Shown here: positions 4,700 to 50,717 of the stretch, in pieces
Numbering within the stretch: position 1 is the stretch's first letter
Layout: each line of letters opens with the position of its first letter
Source: Cordylochernes scorpioides
Taxonomy: Eukaryota; Arthropoda; Arachnida; Pseudoscorpiones; Chernetidae
Assembly: GCA_030710605.1 (NCBI GenBank)
Contig: CP092863.1
Location: 106,502,099-106,566,098, forward strand
DNA length: 64,000 nt
Direction: 5' to 3'
Notes under the pieces: generated by a model
Database searches by the model: none
What the model saw: only the letters and a program-made list of their open reading frames with translations
Told to the model about the DNA's origin: nothing
Translations under genes and position numbers: made by a program

Positions 4700-5102
4700 T
4701 GGCTTAAAGATATCCATAGGAAGAACATGTGTCGAATAAAAAAGCTAAGAATTCCTTGGGAAGCGAGTAAGTTTTGTAAATAAAGAAAAATTCCCCCACC
4801 AAGGACATAGTGAGTCATAGGTTTAAAAATACAACAAGCGGACGTATGGAACTTGTTAACGGGAAACAAGTAATGTTTTTGACAACCTTGTTCGAGAGAG
4901 AAAACTTACAGGTAGAGGAAAAAGAAACATCAAGAATTAGCTTCATTAAGGTTAATTATAATATCTTCATCACAAAACCATTTAGAAGACGCATCAAGCA
5001 AATGTAGAGAGAGAGAGGGAGAGAAAAAAAAGGAGTTGAAGCAACCTTTAATAAGTTTTGACCATTGACTAGACTTTATTTTTTGTCATTATCACATACG
5101 TA
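4700..5102. other. Unassigned stretch
   Basis: No recognisable gene. Small frames on both strands (about 65-79 codons) overlap each other and have no domain signature. A GA-rich run lies at 5006-5030. Confidence 0.4.
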
Positions 5103-5207
5103 TATGGAACGCTTCACGATTTTGCGTGTCATCCTTGCGCAGGGGCCATGCTAATCTTCTCTGTATCCTTCCTATTGTAGTAGTTGTACCGCCGAACTGG
5201 TATCACA
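5103..5207 (-). ncRNA. U6: U6 snRNA-like pseudogene
   Basis: Read on the minus strand, 5103-5167 matches the conserved 3' two thirds of U6 spliceosomal snRNA. It has the ACAGAGA box (in GATACAGAGAAGATTAGC), the AGC catalytic triad, the internal-stem-loop region CCCCTGCGCAAGGATGACAC and the 3' end CGTGAAGCGTTCCATAT. The 5' part to about 5207 is recognisable but diverged: the TTCGGC loop is kept, while the 5' stem no longer pairs well. No T run follows the 3' end, so the normal RNA polymerase III terminator is missing. I read it as a pseudogene that founded the array beside it. Confidence 0.7.
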
Positions 5208-5527
5208 GGGACCATGCTAATCTTCTCTGTATCCTTCCTATTGTTGTAGTTGTACTGCCGAACTGGTATCACAGGGACCATGCTAATATTCACTGTATCC
5301 TTTCCATTGTAGTAGTTGTACCGCCGAACTGGTATCACAGGGACCATGCTAATCTTCTCTGTATCCTTCCTATTGTAGTAGTTGTACCGCCGAACTGGTA
5401 TCACAGGGACCATGCTAATCTTCTCTGTATCCTTCCTATTGTAGTAGTTGTACCGCCGAACTGGTATCACAGGGACCATGCTAATCTTCTCTGTATCCTT
5501 CCTATTGTAGTAGATGTACCGCCGAAC
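5142..5527 (-). repeat. 66-bp tandem array of U6 5'-half units
   Basis: Six units of 66 bp start at 5142, 5208, 5274, 5340, 5406 and 5472. Each carries the U6 segment from the 5' stem-loop through ACAGAGA to GATTAGCATGG on the minus strand. Only the unit at 5142-5207 continues into the U6 3' part (5103-5141). Because 66 is a multiple of three, the array stays open in several frames; those frames are by-products. Confidence 0.85.
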
Positions 5528-5529
5528 AA

Positions 5530-6160
5530 GCGTGTACAACACATACGTATAGTGATTATGTTTGTTTACAAACAGTCTTCTGAAATTTCAACCAAAAATC
5601 TGTCGTTGAAGAGGCCACCGTCTCCATCCTCACGAGCCATGTACTTGCAGACATCGCATTTGGACATTCCAAAACAAACCCAACCTACCTTCACTGTTCA
5701 AAAGAGCCACAAACAGCTCCACAGTCTCATTACCAGCTAAACTAGTGGAATTACGACCAAATTGAGAATTTAAATGTCAACATTTGACTAAGGGCCAGTA
5801 GGACAAACTATGTAAGAATAAAGAATGAGCACAGCCATCTTGTAAAAAAAGAATAATTCGAAATATCGACTGAGAGTACGTCTGGAATAGAAAACTTATT
5901 TTAACTTCACTTGAGGGGGAGTACGGAACTTTTTATATAAATATCTACATTCCCCTTCTTTCTTTGTTTTTCTCTAAGTGGAAAACTTAAAAAATTGGGT
6001 CAGAGAGCGCGTACAAAGTTTCGCTAAACAACCTAAATGGAACTTTTATGCCTCTTAATTACCTATTGACGATTTTTTGGGCGGTAGGATATTGATCTAT
6101 AAAAAAAAGAAAGGTCAAATTTGTAGAATTATGGGGTTTGAAGGGAGAGGTGCATCCAAT
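5530..6160. other. Unassigned stretch
   Basis: No gene or repeat recognised. It includes a C-rich segment at about 5610-5730. Confidence 0.4.
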
Positions 6161-10827: not shown

Positions 10828-11261
10828 CACTCATGGACAAAACTTAAGGAAGTGGAAAGTCTTTAATGTCGCGTCGTCTATTTTTTTTTTTTAAGGAGAC
10901 AGAGGCAATTTAGTTCACACTTGGTTATCTCGTGTGTCTTCAATAAAGGTCACTGTAATATCTTTCAGAGTTATTGTCTCAATCCCGATATACATGCTAA
11001 AAGGTACAACTTCCTTAAGTTCTGTCTATGAGTGTATCTTTCAGAGTTATTGTCTGAATCCCGATATACATGCTAAAAGATACAACTTCCTTAAGTTTTG
11101 TACAAGAGTATATCTTTCAGAGTTATTGTCTGAATCCCGATATACACGCTAAAATGTACAACCTCCTTAAATTTTTGTCCATGAGTGTATCTTTCAGAGT
11201 TATTGTCGGAATCCCGATATACATGCTGAAAGGTACAACTTCCTTAAGTTGTCTATGAGTG
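10828..11261 (-). mobile_element. MITE-C copy with tandem interior
   Basis: Starts CACTCATGGACAAAACTTAA after TA and ends in the inverted form (ctatgagtg) before TA. The right half holds four units of about 76-80 bp (ctttcagagttattgtctga, then cccgatatacatgc), each ending in a copy of the terminal repeat. TA duplication and the terminal sequence suit Tc1/mariner. Confidence 0.75.
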
Positions 11262-11264
11262 TAT

Positions 11265-19426: not shown

Positions 19427-19699
19427 TAATTGTTTATTATTAAATATGTGTAAATATTTTAATAGTTTGATGTTATGCAAATTCTGTAACTATATATTCT
19501 TTTTTGTTGTGAGAAAGACATCACTCACTTCTCGTGTCTTGATTTAAAAATAAAACTTGTTAAGATAGTTCTGTGTATATTCTTTAATTAAGACAAGATG
19601 GTAAATCTACACTCATGGACAAAAGGAAGATGGGATAGGGTAAGTTTTTGGCCTCAAACGTCAGAACGTGTTTTTATTTTAAGACTGTAAATAGTCAAA

Positions 19700-21788: not shown

Positions 21789-22142
21789 ATGTTCCAACAA
21801 GGGAAATTAATATCTTGGATACATCCCATCTAACAAATGGCTGGCAGAAGATAGAAGGGGGGGTGTGGGGGAAATATTGGCTCGTTTTTTATACCGTTCC
21901 TTTGTTGTGGTGGGGGCTGAACGAAGCTTCTTTTTTAACTTTTTAAAAAAACTTCCGCCTTATCTATAAATAATGTGTTCATTGTTGTTTGTTGCTAAGA
22001 CATGGATAGATGGTGAGATGGAGAATATGATTGAAAGGCTTTTCCTTATAAAAATCTCTCTTTAGATAGTTAAGAAAAAGCGTTATAGAATATACTTAAT
22101 AATATTAATCAATCAATACCTTTATTAAGACCTTTAGTCTTA

Positions 22143-22480
22143 TACTCATGGACAAAACTTAAGGAAGTTGTACCTTTTAGCATGTATATCGGAATTTAGA
22201 CAATAACTCTGAAAGATATACTCATGGACAAAACTTAAGGAAGTTGTACCTTTTAGCATGTATATCGGAATTTAGACAATAACTCTGAAAGATACACTCA
22301 TGGACAAAACTTAAGAAAGTTGTACCTTTTAGCATGTATATCGGGATTCAGACAATAACTCTGAAGGATATTACAGTGACCTTTATTGAAGACACACGAT
22401 ATAACCAAATGTATGCAAAATTGCCTGTCTTTTTGAAAAAAAAATAAAAAAAGACGACCGACGACATTAAAGACTTTAAA
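22143..22480 (+). mobile_element. MITE-C, truncated, three terminal units
   Basis: Three 76-79-bp units, each starting cactcatgga (actcatgga for the first), are followed by the family interior (gtgacctttattgaagacac). No closing terminal repeat is found. Confidence 0.7.
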
Positions 22481-26516: not shown

Positions 26517-26960
26517 TAAGGAAATTGTACCTTTTAGTATGTATATCGGGATTCAGATAATAAATATGAAAGATACATTCATGGACAAAACTTAAGGAAG
26601 TTGTACATTTTAACATGTATATCGGGATTCAGATAATAACTCTGAAAGATATTATAGTGACCTTTATTGAAGACACACGAGATAACCAAGTGTGAACAGC
26701 CCCTGTCTCCTTCAATACACTCATGGACAAAACTTGAGGAAGTTGTACCTTTTAACATTTATATCGGGATTCAGACAAGCTCTCTGAAAGATATTACAGT
26801 GACCTTTATTGAAGATACACGGGATAACCAATTGCGATCAAAATTGAATCTGTCTCCTTCAAAAAAAAAAAAAGACGACGACCAGTGACATCAAAGCAGA
26901 CTAAAGCAGACGAACGTTGAAATCAAATTATGAAACGTCCTTAAGATTTGTCAATGAGTG
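26517..26960 (+). mobile_element. MITE-C copy
   Basis: Starts ctcatggacttaagg after TA and ends ttgtcaatgagtg before TA. It contains three terminal units, with the family interior repeated after the second and third. Confidence 0.7.
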
Positions 26961-27192: not shown

Positions 27193-29319
27193 TGCTGTAC
27201 GTTCCCCGACTGCCCTACGTCGTGGTTTACCTCAGTCTGTGTTGTACGTTCCCCGACTGCCCTACGTCGTGGTTTTCCTCAGTCTGTGTTGTACGTTCCC
27301 CGACTGCCCTACGTCGTGGTTTTCCTCAGTCTGTGTTGTACGTTCCCCGACTGCCCTACGTCGTGGTTTACCTCAGTCTGTGTTGTACGTTCCCCGACTG
27401 CCCTACGCCGTGGTTTACCTCAGTCTGTGTTGTACGTTCCCCGACTGCCCTACGCCGTGGTTTACCTCAGTCGTGTTGTACGTTCCCCGACTGCCCTACG
27501 TCGTGGTTTATCTCAGTCTGTGTTGTACGTTCCCCGACTGCCCTACGCCGTGGTTTATCTCAGTCTGTGTTGTACGTTCCCCGACTGCCCTACGCCGTGG
27601 TTTACCTCAGTCTGTGTTGTACGTTCCCCGACTGCCCTACGTCGTGGTTTACCTCAGTCAGTGTTGTACGTTCCCCGACTGCCCTACGTCGTGGTTTATC
27701 TCAGTCTGTGTTGTACGTTCCCCGACTGCCCTATGTCGTGGTTTATCTCAGTCTGTGCTGTACGTTCCCCGACTGCCCTACGTCGTGGTTTTCCTCAGTC
27801 TGTGTTGTACGTTCCCCGACTGCCCTACGTCGTGGTTTACCTCAGTCTGTGTTGTACGTTCCCCGACTGCCCTACGCCGTGGTTTACCTCAGTCTGTGTT
27901 GTACGTTCCCCGACTGCCCTACGCCGTGGTTTATCTCAGTCTGTGTTGTACGTTCCCCGACTGCCCTACGCCGTGGTTTATCTCAGTCTGTGTTGTACGT
28001 TCCCCGACTGCCCTACGCCGTGGTTTACCTCAGTCTGTGTTGTACGTTCCCCGACTGCCCTACGTCGTGGTTTACCTCAGTCTGTGTTGTACGTTCCCCG
28101 ACTGCCCTACGTCGTGGTATACCTCAGTCTGTGTTGTACGTTCCCCGACTGCCCTACGTCGTGGTTTATCTCAGTCTGTGTTGTACGTTCCCCGACTGCC
28201 CTACGTCGTGGTTTATCTCAGTCTGTGTTGTACGTTCCCCGACTGCCCTACGTCGTGGTTTATCTCAGTCTGTGTTGTACGTTCCCCGACTGCCCTACGT
28301 CGTGGTATACCTCAGTCTGTGTTGTACGTTCCCCGACTGCCCTACGCCGTGGTTTATCTCAGTCTGTGTTGTACGTTCCCCGACTGTCCTACGTCGTGGT
28401 ATACCTCAGTCTGTGTTGTACGTTCCCCGACTGCCCTACGTCGTGGTATACCTCAGTCTGTGTTGTACGTTCCCCGACTGTCCTACGTCGTGGTATACCT
28501 CAGTCTGTGTTGTACGTTCCCCGGCTGCCCTACGTCGTGGTTTACCTCAGTCTGTGTTGTACGTTCCCCGACTGCCCTACGTCGTGGTTTATCTCAGTCT
28601 GTGTTGTACGTTCCCCGACTGCCCTACGCCGTGGTTTATCTCAGTCTGTGTTGTACGTTCCCCGACTGCCCTACGTCGTGGTTTACCTCAGTCTGTGTTG
28701 TACGTTCCCCGACTGCCCTACGTCGTGGTTTACCTCAGTCTGTGTTGTACGTTCCCCGACTGTCCTACGTCGTGGTTTACCTCAGTCTGTGTTGTACGTT
28801 CCCCGACTGCCCTACGTCGTGGTTTACCTCAGTCTGTGTTGTACGTTCCCCGACTGCCCTACGTCGTGGTTTACCTCAGTCTGTGTTGTACGTTCCCCGA
28901 CTGCCCTACGTCGTGGTATACCTCAGTCTGTGTTGTACGTTCCCCGACTGCCCTACGTCGTGGTTTATCTCAGTCTGTGTTGTACGTTCCCCGACTGCCC
29001 TACGTCGTGGTTTATCTCAGTCTGTGTTGTACGTTCCCCGACTGCCCTACGTCGTGGTTTACCTCAGTCTGTGTTGTACGTTCCCCGACTGTCCTACGTC
29101 GTGGTTTACCTCAGTCTGTGTTGTACGTTCCCCGACTGCCCTACGTCGTGGTTTATCTCAGTCTGTGTTGTACGTTCCCCGACTGCCCTACGTCGTGGTT
29201 TATCTCAGTCTGTGTTGTACGTTCCCCGACTGCCCTACGTCGTGGTTTATCTCAGTCTGTGTTGTACGTTCCCCGACTGCCCTATGTCGTGGTTTACCTC
29301 AGTCTGTGTTGTACGTTCC
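27193..29319 (+). repeat. 47-bp CpG-rich minisatellite, about 45 units
   Basis: Unit tgttgtacgttccccgactg, ccctacgtcgtggtttacct, cagtctg. It holds four CpGs and is far more GC-rich than the flanks. Variation is nearly all at a few positions (acgtcg/acgccg; tttacc/tttatc/tatacc). One unit near 27472 lacks one T. No stop occurs in any plus-strand frame of the unit, so all three frames stay open for more than 700 codons. These are artefacts of unit composition, not genes. The preceding 26961-27192 shows nothing. Confidence 0.97.
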
Positions 29320-38292: not shown

Positions 38293-38834
38293 AAAAAATA
38301 ATAATTAGAAGGGCTTGTGGTTCATAATATAACTAATTTACATACGTAGATTTAGGTAAAAAAAAAATGTACGCTACGAAACAAACAAAGGGAGAAGAAA
38401 TAGAACTAGTTAAAAAGAGTGAATACTACATTTTGATCTTAGTCAAAAGGTTAAAAACAAGAAGACGGTGTGAGACAAATCTATTTTACTTTTTTTCATT
38501 CCAGAAAGAAGAAAACAGGTTGGGAGGTAATGTTTGAAGGCGGAAATACATTGTCCCACAAAATGGGAACACACACGCCAGTGAAACAGACGGACACAAT
38601 CGATGTTTCTAGAAAAAAAAAAACTAGCGCCGCAGTGTTGGAAATAGAGGGGAAACATTGACAGCATGTGTCCTAAACAATACCTATTGGAATGTCCTTT
38701 AGCTACACTCTAACGAATAGTTAGGGGGGAAAAAACATTTTTAAAAAGACGAGATTTCAATTAGAAGAGTTAAGCATGTTGATCACTAGAGCTACCAGCG
38801 TTTGACTTTTCCTTAAGTCGGAATTTCTAATATA

Positions 38835-39500
38835 CACTCATGGACAAAACTTAAGGAAGTTGTACCTTTTAGCATGTATATCGGGATTCAGACAATAACT
38901 CTGAAAGATACACTCATGGACAAAACTTAAGGAAGTTGTACCTTTTAGCATGTATATCGGGATTCAGACAATAACTCTGAAAGATACACTCATGGACAAA
39001 ACTTAAAGGAAGTTGTACCTTTTAGCATGTATATCGGGATTCAGACAATAACTCTGAAAGATACACTCATGGACAAAACTAAAGGAAGTTGTACCTTTCA
39101 CCATGTATATCGGGATTCAGACAATAACTCTGAAAGATACACTCATGGACAAAACTTAAGGAAGTTGTACCTTTTAGCATGTATATCGGGATTCAGACAA
39201 TAACTCTGAAATATACACTCATGGACAAAACTTAAGGAAGTTGTATCTTTTAGCATCTATATCGGGATTCAGACAATAACTCTGAAAGATACACTCATGG
39301 ACAAAACTTAAGGAAGTTATACCTTTTAGCATGTATATCGGGATTCAGACAATAACTCTGAAAGATATTACAGTGAACTTTATTGAAGACACACAAGATA
39401 ACCAAGTGTGAACAGCCTCTGTCTCCTTTAAAAAAAAAAAAAAAAACTGACGATGGCGACATCAAAATATGAAACTTTCTTAAGTTTTGGTCCAGGAATG
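38835..39500 (+). mobile_element. MITE-C expanded: seven 76-bp units
   Basis: CACTCATGGACAAAACTTAA recurs at 38835, 38911, 38987, 39064, 39140, 39216 and 39292. Then comes the interior (tttattgaagacacac) and a closing inverted terminus near 39500. Each unit begins with a full terminal repeat. Confidence 0.9.
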
Positions 39501-46443: not shown

Positions 46444-46640
46444 TCCCTAGTACATGTGGTACAGGGTATGATAATCCTGGTGGATAGTAGTTAGCAACTG
46501 CTTTTACTGTAAGTACACCACATGTCTACACATAGGGAAAGCACAGTTCAACTTTTGCACTTACAAGTTACAAATGTGACAGAGCCCCGTTTGGTTACTT
46601 GCTCTCATTGGTAGGTTTAGACAACAACAGGAATTGAGGG
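46444..46640 (-). mobile_element. SINE-3, continuous with the first satellite unit
   Basis: Reverse SINE-3 tail starting ccctagtacatgtggtac. It runs through accacatgtctacaca to gacagagccccgtttggtta, which is also the start of the 160-bp satellite unit. Confidence 0.8.
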
Positions 46641-49600
46641 GGGGACACAGTAAGAGAACGCTGTCTCTAAAGGACATTTTTGCTCTACATTTGAATGTTG
46701 TCATTTACAGAGAGATAGTTCTACTGTAATTAGGGTTGACAGAGCCCCGTTTGGTTACTTGTTCCCACTTGTAGGTTTAGACAACAACAGGAATTGAGGG
46801 GCACACAGTAAGAGAACACCTCTCTCTAAAGGACATTTTTGCTCTACATTTGAATGTTGTCAGAGAGATAGTTCTACTGTAATTAGGGTTGACAGAGCCC
46901 CGTTTGGTTACTTGTTCCTACTTGTAGGTTTAGAAAACAACAGGAATTGAGGAGGGGACACAGTAAGAGAACGCTGTCTCTAAAGAACATTTTTGCTCTA
47001 CATTTAAGTGTTGTCATTTACAGAGAGATAGTTCTACTGTAATTAGGATTGACAGAGCCCCGTTTGGTTATTTGCTCTCATTGGTAGGTTTAGACAACAA
47101 CAGGAATTGAGGAGGGGACACAGTAAGAGAACGCTGTCTCTAAAGAACATTTTTGCTCTACATTTAAGTGTTGTCATTTACAGAGAGATAGTTCTACTGT
47201 AATTAGGATTGACAGAGCCCCGTTTGGTTATTTGCTCTCATTGGTAGGTTTAGACAACAACAGGAATTGAGGAGGGGACACAGTAAGAGAACGCTGTCTC
47301 TAAAGAACATTTTTGCTCTACATTTAAGTGTTGTCATTTACAGAGAGATAGTTCTACTGTAATTAGGATTGACAGAGCCCCGTTTGGTTATTTGCTCTCA
47401 TTGGTAGGTTTAGACAACAACAGGAATTGAGGAGGGGACACAGTAAGAGAACGCTGTCTCTAAAGAACATTTTTGCTCTACATTTAAGTGTTGTCATTTA
47501 CAGAGAGATAGTTCTACTGTAATTAGGATTGACAGAGCCCCGTTTGGTTATTTGCTCTCATTGGTAGGTTTAGACAACAACAGGAATTGAGATGGGGCAC
47601 GCAGTAAGAGAACGCTGTCTCTAAAGGACATTTTTGCTCTACATTTAAGTGTTGTCATTTACAGAGAGATAGTTTTACTGTAATTAGGATTGACAGAGCC
47701 CCGTTTGGTTATTTGCTCTCATTGGTAGGTTTAGACAACAACAGGAATTGAGGAGGGGACACAGTAAGAGAACGCTGTCTCTAAAGAACATTTTTGCTCT
47801 ACATTTAAGTGTTGTCATTTACAGAGAGATATTTCTACTGTAATTAGGATTGACAGAGCCCCGTTTGGTTATTTGCTCTCATTGGTAGGTTTAGACAACA
47901 ACAGGAATTGAGGAGGGGACACAGTAAGAGAACGCTGTCTCTAAAGGACATTTTTGCTCTACATTTAAGTGTTGTCATTTACAGAGAGATAGTTCTACTG
48001 TAATTAGGATTGACAGAGCCCCGTTTGGTTATTTGCTCTCATTGGTAGGTTTAGACAACAAAAGGAATTGAGATGGGGCAACGCAGTAAGAGAACGCTGT
48101 CTCTAAAGAACATTTTTGCTCTACATTTAAGTGTTGTCATTTACAGAGAGATAGTTCTACTGTAATTAGGATTGACAGAGCCCCGTTTGGTTATTTGCTC
48201 TCATTGGTAGGTTTAGACAACAAAAGGAATTGAGATGGGGCACGCAGTAAGAGAACGCTGTCTCTAAAGAACATTTTTGCTCTACATTTAAGTGTTGTCA
48301 TTTACAGAGAGATAGTTCTACTGTAATTAGGATTGACAGAGCCCCGTTTGGTTATTTGCTCTCATTGGTAGGTTTAGACAACAACAGGAATTGAGGAGGG
48401 GACACAGTAAGAGAACGCTGTCTCTAAAGAACATTTTTGCTCTACATTTAAGTGTTGTCATTTACAGAGAGATAGTTCTACTGTAATTAGGATTGACAGA
48501 GCCCCGTTTGGTTATTTGCTCTCATTGGTAGGTTTAGACAACAACAGGAATTGAGGAGGGGACACAGTAAGAGAACGCTGTCTCTAAAGAACATTTTTGC
48601 TCTACATTTAAGTGTTGTCATTTACAGAGAGATAGTTCTACTGTAATTAGGATTGACAGAGCCCCGTTTGGTTATTTGCTCTCATTGGTAGGTTTAGACA
48701 ACAACAGGAATTGAGGAGGGGACACAGTAAGAGAACGCTGTCTCTAAAGAACATTTTTGCTCTACATTTAAGTGTTGTCATTTACAGAGAGATAGTTCTA
48801 CTGTAATTAGGATTGACAGAGCCCCGTTTGGTTATTTGCTCTCATTGGTAGGTTTAGACAACAACAGGAATTGAGGAGGGGACACAGTAAGAGAACGCTG
48901 TCTCTAAAGAACATTTTTGCTCTACATTTAAGTGTTGTCATTTACAGAGAGATAGTTCTACTGTAATTAGGATTGACAGAGCCCCGTTTGGTTATTTGCT
49001 CTCATTGGTAGGTTTAGACAACAACAGGAATTGAGATGGGGCACGCAGTAAGAGAACGCTGTCTCTAAAGAACATTTTTGCTCTACATTTAAGTGTTGTC
49101 ATTTACAGAGAGATAGTTCTACTGTAATTAGGATTGACAGAGCCCCGTTTGGTTATTTGCTCTCATTGGTAGGTTTAGACAACAACAGGAATTGAGGAGG
49201 GGACACAGTAAGAGAACGCTGTCTCTAAAGAACATTTTTGCTCTACATTTAAGTGTTGTCATTTACAGAGAGATAGTTCTACTGTAATTAGGATTGACAG
49301 AGCCCCGTTTGGTTATTTGCTCTCATTGGTAGGTTTAGACAACAACAGGAATTGAGATGGGGCACGCAGTAAGAGAACGCTGTCTCTAAAGGACATTTTT
49401 GCTCTACATTTAAGTGTTGTCATTTACAGAGAGATAGTTCTACTGTAATTAGGATTGACAGAGCCCCGTTTGGTTATTTGCTCTCATTGGTAGGTTTAGA
49501 CAACAACAGGAATTGAGGAGGGGACACAGTAAGAGAACGCTGTCTCTAAAGAACATTTTTGCTCTACATTTAAGTGTTGTCATTTACAGAGAGATAGTTC

Positions 49601-50717
49601 TACTGTAATTAGGATTGACAGAGCCCCGTTTGGTTATTTGCTCTCATTGGTAGGTTTAGACAACAACAGGAATTGAGGAGGGGACACAGTAAGAGAACGC
49701 TGTCTCTAAAGAACATTTTTGCTCTACATTTAAGTGTTGTCATTTACAGAGAGATAGTTCTACTGTAATTAGGATTGACAGAGCCCCGTTTGGTTATTTG
49801 CTCTCATTGGTAGGTTTAGACAACAACAGGAATTGAGGAGGGGACACAGTAAGAGAACGCTGTCTCTAAAGAACATTTTTGCTCTACATTTAAGTGTTGT
49901 CATTTACAGAGAGATAGTTCTACTGTAATTAGGATTGACAGAGCCCCGTTTGGTTATTTGCTCTCATTGGTAGGTTTAGACAACAACAGGAATTGAGGAG
50001 GGGACACAGTAAGAGAACGCTGTCTCTAAAGAACATTTTTGCTCTACATTTAAGTGTTGTCATTTACAGAGAGATAGTTCTACTGTAATTAGGATTGACA
50101 GAGCCCCGTTTGGTTATTTGCTCTCATTGGTAGGTTTAGACAACAAAAGGAATTGAGATGGGGCACGCAGTAAGAGAACGCTGTCTCTAAAGAACATTTT
50201 TGCTCTACATTTAAGTGTTGTCATTTACAGAGAGATAGTTCTACTGTAATTAGGATTGACAGAGCCCCGTTTGGTTATTTGCTCTCATTGGTAGGTTTAG
50301 ACAACAACAGGAATTGAGGAGGGGACACAGTAAGAGAACGCTGTCTCTAAAGAACATTTTTGCTCTACATTTAAGTGTTGTCATTTACAGAGAGATAGTT
50401 CTACTGTAATTAGGATTGACAGAGCCCCGTTTGGTTATTTGCTCTCATTGGTAGGTTTAGACAACAACAGGAATTGAGGAGGGGACACAGTAAGAGAACG
50501 CTGTCTCTAAAGAACATTTTTGCTCTACATTTAAGTGTTGTCATTTACAGAGAGATAGTTCTACTGTAATTAGGATTGACAGAGCCCCGTTTGGTTATTT
50601 GCTCTCATTGGTAGGTTTAGACAACAAAAGGAATTGAGATGGGGCACGCAGTAAGAGAACGCTGTCTCTAAAGAACATTTTTGCTCTACATTTAAGTGTT
50701 GTCATTTACAGAGAGAT
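46583..50717 (+). repeat. 160-bp satellite, about 26 units
   Basis: Word aattaggatt recurs at 47041 and 47201, and so on. Each unit combines a SINE-3 part (gacagagccccgtttggtta), a unique part (gtttagacaacaacaggaat) and a MITE-B right half (ctctaaagaacatttttgct ... agagagatagttctactgta). The first three units are most diverged; inner units differ mainly by gaggaggggac/gagatggggca and aaagaac/aaaggac. The last unit is interrupted at 50717. Confidence 0.97.

Follow-up and report, generated by a model that had tools for sequence, protein, structure and literature searches.

The window analysed here is a stretch of 64,000 nucleotides of the pseudoscorpion Cordylochernes scorpioides (C1:106502099-106566098), within a 2.62-Gb genome of 24 contigs. 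Its minus strand carries, at 5105-5537, an array of five 66-67-bp units corresponding to the 5' part of U6 snRNA, followed by a sixth that reaches the U6 3' end; including the direct repeats that flank it, the array extends over 5093-5551 (Table 1). Tandem Repeats Finder (TRF) detected a period of 66 with 5.9 copies and 95% matches at 5140-5527. The Rfam covariance model of U6 (RF00026; gathering score 44, reporting threshold E <= 0.01) gave a full-length match at 5098-5203 (96.6 bits) and three partial matches above gathering, at 5336-5401 and 5402-5467 (48.4 bits each) and at 5468-5537 (47.8 bits), all of them on the minus strand, and by these matches the array belongs to the RF00026 family. 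On the same strand, 5204-5269 scored 43.0 bits, just below gathering, and the most diverged unit (5273-5338) had no Rfam U6 match at E <= 0.01. A preliminary description of this DNA had proposed a tandem array founded by the U6 5' part, and the TRF period together with Rfam matches on several units confirms that such an array is real. Its U6 likeness is not confined to 5103-5167 either, as covariance-model matches lie well outside that segment.

Table 1. Features of the U6-derived array, in window coordinates.
Feature	Position	Strand	Basis
Left target-site duplication copy (TATACGTATGTG on the minus strand)	5093..5104	.	Exact 12-bp match to 5540-5551
U6 3' part (GCGCAAGGATGACACGC...GCGTTCCA), single occurrence	5105..5140	-	Rfam full-length match 5098-5203
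Unit 6, 3'-most, runs into the U6 3' part	5141..5206	-	Rfam 96.6 bits together with the 3' part
Unit 5	5207..5272	-	Rfam 43.0 bits, below gathering
Unit 4, most diverged	5273..5338	-	TRF and unit alignment; no Rfam match reported
Unit 3	5339..5404	-	Rfam 48.4 bits
Unit 2	5405..5470	-	Rfam 48.4 bits
Unit 1, 5'-most, retains the U6 start GTACACGCTTG	5471..5537	-	Rfam 47.8 bits; 5' end as in promoter-bearing C3/C6 U6 genes
TT between U6 start and target-site duplication	5538..5539	-	Direct reading
Right target-site duplication copy	5540..5551	.	Exact match to 5093-5104

As the units end with CCCCT or TCCCT at about U6 position 66 (minus-strand reading), each includes both the ACAGAGA box and AGC triad. 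Only unit 6 continues into the U6 3' part, GCGCAAGGATGACACGC...GCGTTCCA (5140-5105, minus strand), and, as had been described, the array was indeed founded by the U6 5' part and has a single 3' end and a single founding junction. The changes in the 5' stem that had been ascribed to every unit were found in five of the six (units 2-6, reading GTGATACCAGTTCGG), and the outermost unit (5471-5537) retains the U6-like 5' end GTACACGCTTGTTCGG. The array is flanked on either side by the same 12 bp, TATACGTATGTG (5551-5540 and 5104-5093); at the 3' side the U6 end GTTCCA runs into it, so that TAT overlaps U6. Directly upstream of the array lies the target-site duplication, and neither of the U6 promoter classes described below was seen there by eye. 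The array therefore lacks the features of a functional U6 gene, namely a proximal sequence element (PSE) and TATA box upstream of a single full-length unit. Comparison with a phage collection yielded no match.

The 25-base junction between units was searched in the whole genome and was found at 1,943 places exactly (932 + 1,011) and at 19,510 places with up to three mismatches (9,253 + 10,257); the reversed pattern, used as a control, gave 0 matches. A chance origin of the U6 likeness is excluded by these counts and by the covariance E-values, and array copies elsewhere, for which a test had been suggested, do exist. The first 100 exact junction matches listed lie within the first 109.2 Mb of C1 and form 32 clusters more than 10 kb apart, and among the exact matches listed the spacing between near neighbours was a multiple of 66 in 54 of 67 cases. 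The family thus has the head-to-tail arrays at many loci that define a satellite. It also has the multi-copy dispersal, with variants common to copies, that is expected of a SINE; a LINE-derived 3' tail, another SINE feature, was not seen by eye at the loci read, where the 3' end is that of U6 itself.

The distribution of the arrays along C1 was uneven. One of the 32 exact-junction clusters lay in 0-65 Mb, 17 in 65-72 Mb and 14 beyond, compared with 24, 2 and 15 of the 41 clusters of plain U6-like 5' ends in the same 109.2 Mb (Fisher p about 2e-7, a value that refers to exact matches in this part of C1 only and to clusters that are not fully independent). Arrays are therefore concentrated in one region and single copies are not; perhaps this region has low recombination.

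Two promoter classes of genuine U6 genes were found, and in both the promoter is external. In class 1, a proximal element resembling TTTTCTAGATACCATTCTGCTGTG is combined with a TATA box; the members cluster at C20:27.70-27.90 Mb, and further ones lie at C20:65.9-66.1 Mb and C8:91.22 Mb. Class 2 has TTCGTTAAYTACCCATTTG and TATATAAG, starts with GTACACGC, and is present at C3:93.94 Mb and at C6:1.62, 1.69, 6.07, 10.09, 10.20 and 10.21 Mb. The start of the retrocopies, GTACACGCTTG, agrees with the class 2 genes of C3 and C6, and GTACACGCTTGTTCGGCGGTAC has 1,309 exact copies genome-wide. All 23 promoter-linked U6 loci measured were one unit long, with 68-69 bases separating two anchors, and part of their internal sequence is masked. 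Some three dozen promoter-linked U6 starts were found, against 19,510 near-exact junctions.

A multimer bearing a promoter was searched for with four patterns. The TATA-region pattern of the C20 class gave 82 matches, and the 20 examined (10 U6, 10 non-U6) included no promoter-bearing multimer. When the proximal promoter of the same class was joined to the U6 start, 26 matches were obtained, all starting with GTACTCGC, TTACTCGC or GTACTTGC and none of them a multimer. TATA followed by the GTACACGC start gave 43 matches, of which five were examined, two being the genes of C3 and C6, and the second PSE gave 39, of which 19 were examined; again, no promoter-bearing multimer was among those examined. 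The arrays at C5 55.5-56.2 Mb were considered as a source and rejected, as the 5' flanks covered show, by eye, TC repeats and no U6 promoter.

These searches also returned other loci. The TATA-region pattern of the U6 genes (up to three mismatches) occurred without U6 after it at L076 and L080-L088, several of which share a AATACAATAGTAGAGCGGTCTGGAGATT-like sequence, as in another repeat or small-RNA-derived element. A similar proximal element is carried by U1 loci (L146, L147, L148, L151) and by a U11 locus (L152). Many matches to the snRNA proximal element lie at C16:77.63-77.94 Mb, and the one examined, L147, is a U1 match with 100.5 bits, a lower score than those of the U1 loci L146, L148 and L151. 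Finally, L144 and L145 (C19:7.01 and 7.11 Mb) have a snRNA proximal element and a TATA box and probably represent a 7SK-like gene, although their Rfam 7SK scores of 22.6-23.6 bits do not reach the gathering score of 35.

Target-site duplications were scored as a common word at the right place in the 5' and 3' flanks of each locus, with scores of at least 8 counted as passing. From 103 locus entries, 32 without both ends covered, seven without a U6 3' end and one duplicate were removed, leaving 63, of which 48 were not at TC repeats. The threshold was reached by 17 of these 48 non-TC loci, compared with 2.2% of 2,256 mispaired controls, and by none of seven promoter-linked genes (L002, L003, L004, L006, L007, L119, L120). 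Among the 13 non-TC multimers, four passed (L024, L050, L063 and L062, which is the window array) and nine remained below the threshold. For the window array, the 12-bp duplication had a p of about 0.0009 against mispaired flanks; this value supersedes the 0.02 of a first version of the test, whose control was inflated by TC-repeat loci. Further duplications were recognised by eye at L056, L060, L115 and L027; those of L027 flank two unit clusters, and in L115 two units are inserted between CACGTTAGAG repeats. Six entries with more than one unit lack a recognisable U6 3' end (L009, L017, L023, the 4-unit part of L027, L036, L038).

In the 17 passing loci the duplication and the U6 3' end overlap by 4.1 nt on average (range -2 to 10), in a search that favours longer overlaps. 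Small-RNA insertions without a tail, primed by complementarity, have been described in therian mammals (PMC5322556, passages), and the window array resembles these tailless retropseudogenes in having a target-site duplication, no A-tail and a 3' end that overlaps the target. It departs from them in comprising six units instead of a single source copy. When 85 5' flanks were compared, 12 named loci fell in a similar pair (four U6 genes, one self-compared region and seven retrocopy loci, namely L036/L038 and, at TC repeats, L040, L097, L109, L110 and L112). As most of the flanks are unrelated, most insertion sites look independent. The U6 family was probably mobilised by a LINE; in the window itself an ORF is endonuclease-like only weakly, below the cut-off.

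The junctions themselves could be arranged in a series. The oldest-looking one, CCCCTGCG-ATACTTGTTCGG with the genuine-type TATACTAAAATTGG, is present at L093, L109 and L115, and the older type of junction with TATACTAAAATTGG occurs at 245 places within three mismatches. A GTGATACTTG junction is found at L051 and L049, and GTGATACCAG with ACTACTACAATAGG in the window array. That one complex junction is so widely common points to one founding event, in which U6 ending in ...CCCCTGCG would have been joined to a U6 5' part reading ATACTTGTTCGG. The junction would then have drifted to GCGATACTTG, then to GTGATACTTG and then to GTGATACCAG, an order suggested by likeness to the genes. The single unit L049 starts within the junction, as expected from 5' truncation of a multimer. 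Of 30 arrays, only 12 had a first unit within two mismatches of GTAC[AT]CGCTTG; among the remaining 18, some are cut by the limits of the stretch covered. A test of whether genuine U6 RNA is always the template of the first unit gave no support for this (two of eight arrays).

The reading that we favour, with a probability of about 0.6, is that these arrays belong to a tailless, probably LINE-mobilised U6 retroposon family whose members were inserted as multimers and also grew in place. Members would often have the form [U6 1-66] x n, with the last copy extending to the U6 3' end, and their source would have the 5' end of the GTACACGC class of U6 genes. A LINE-type reverse transcriptase may have been primed directly on the 3' part of the U6 RNA, through pairing of a few bases between this RNA and the nicked target. 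At the window site, either a multimeric U6 RNA would have been copied, or a multimer would have been made by template jumping, before its insertion. Unequal exchange or slippage after insertion could then alter the number of units and lead to higher-order repeats and long arrays.

The most serious alternative is that a retroposed monomer or dimer grew by unequal exchange at each locus, so that the arrays resemble each other only through a common dimer ancestor. Much can be brought forward for such expansion in situ. Higher-order repeats and identical neighbouring units occur among L011, L051 and L044, the higher-order repeats of the long arrays L011 and L051 being recognised by eye; a dimer insertion exists (L115); and L093 has a local duplication that includes the flank, with two units first and then four. 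Three arrays of full-length U6 retrocopies (L089, L092, L040; periods about 99-115 bp) have the TC-repeat target as spacer, an arrangement that suggests a role of flanking duplications in driving tandem growth. The concentration of the exact-junction clusters listed at C1 65-72 Mb (17 of 32), where the 5'-end clusters do not gather (2 of 41), points in the same direction. So does the comparison of units in 21 arrays (mostly on C1, picked by exact junctions and including two pairs with common flanks), in which identity was higher within than between arrays in 16, lower in four and equal in one, supporting some homogenisation in place. However, the mean identity was 0.921 within arrays and 0.906 between them, so the diversity inside an array nearly equals that between arrays, and several unit types are interleaved even in the short arrays L001, L024 and L030. 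Taken as the whole explanation, expansion at each locus is thus rather unlikely.

The formation of multimers before insertion and growth after it both happen, and the nine multimers without a passing duplication, along with the 16 of 21 arrays with higher internal identity, lower our confidence in insertion as multimers. Further points against it are the single-unit length of all promoter-linked U6 loci measured, the U6-like first unit in only 12 of 30 arrays and the six multi-unit entries that lack a U6 3' end. The window array, with six units of mixed variants inside an exact 12-bp duplication, was assigned to the side of formation before insertion. The preliminary description had it growing from one pseudogene at this site, which is not supported as stated in view of the genome-wide junction, the enclosing duplication and the similar identities within and between arrays. 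It is more likely that the window copy came as a multimer, although growth in place is seen at other loci and may have occurred here too.

It was also considered that the reverse transcriptase writes the arrays anew, jumping between U6 RNAs at each insertion, so that tandemness would arise at the cDNA stage every time. Locus L064 (1237-1576) reads U6-T15-U6-T14-U6 end to end beside TC repeats, with no T-tail on its last copy, and the full U6 3' end is absent from that last, primed copy; this suggests past template jumping from one U6 RNA to another in the genome, and switching of LINE templates to U6 is known (PMC4476161, PMC2104539). Nevertheless, a junction common to thousands of units and the derived substitutions they share argue for common descent, and L064 is the one T-tailed concatemer among the loci seen, which makes writing at every insertion improbable. 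Carriage by another mobile element (e.g. a Helitron or an internally repeated MITE) or by segmental duplication would account for the common 5' flanks of L036/L038, the common 3' flanks of L022/L023 and the TC-repeat flank common to L040, L097, L109, L110 and L112, perhaps a single dispersed element favoured as a target, and other dispersed elements in the window do have internal tandem repeats, but most of the 85 5' flanks share nothing and many array ends coincide with U6 ends and target duplications, leaving this the least probable of the explanations, to which we give very little weight.

Satellites are usually regarded as growing locally and spreading through events at the DNA level. We propose, tentatively and with less confidence than in the multimeric retroposon family itself, a retroposon made of U6 only whose tandem body is copied and inserted as a unit and so seeds a satellite via RNA, its tandemness having perhaps been first written by a jumping reverse transcriptase. 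If this is true, satellite birth would have a direct link with the retroposition of a spliceosomal RNA, and the many independent, datable insertions would serve for testing how tandem arrays start. A non-autonomous, LINE-mobilised repeat derived from snRNAs reportedly has U1/U2-derived heads and a LINE-like tail, whereas the present family consists of U6 only, with its own 3' end and a repeated body. SVA elements have an A-tail. Like the U6 family, SVA is LINE-mobilised and has a tandem body of variable number, but it is a composite of other sequences, not U6 (PMC13174262). Tailless retropseudogenes share with the U6 family a spliceosomal or small-RNA source that includes U6, the lack of an A-tail, target-site duplications and priming by complementarity; in contrast, they are described for therian genomes, in an article whose main text does not contain the word "tandem", whereas multimers with a common junction are found here (PMC5322556). 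LINE-made U6 copies are known in mammals and other vertebrates, and the U6 snRNA pseudogenes of groups I-IV likewise have target-site duplications, many being 3'-truncated, but the main text of that article contains "tandem" and "concatemer" 0 times and its groups include no multimer class (PMC4476161). Satellites and minisatellites founded by mobile elements resemble the U6 family in that a dispersed element founds the array, and neither review contains "snRNA" in its main text (PMC6947457, PMC9659126). No U6-derived tandem satellite or multimeric U6 retroposon was recognised in the titles, abstract openings and passages of the open-licence literature. The parts (U6 retropseudogenes, tailless priming, mobile-element satellites) are known, and their combination appears to be new. 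No sign of a host function was seen, and for the annotation of U6 in this genome the copies are overwhelming in number.

The window contains other repeats as well. One 76-bp tandem repeat occurs at 10959-11264, 22141-22371, 26573-26831 and 38832-39367, and similar sequence was seen by eye in the flanks of L001, L060 and L138, so that it is perhaps a dispersed element with an internal tandem body. A long array of 26 copies of 160 bp occupies 46577-50717. Another, of 45 copies of 47 bp (27196-29319), has three frames open over more than 700 codons, most likely by its period alone. An ORF at 43906-44394 matches the DNA-binding domain of Tc5-type transposases (PF03221, 46.4 bits).
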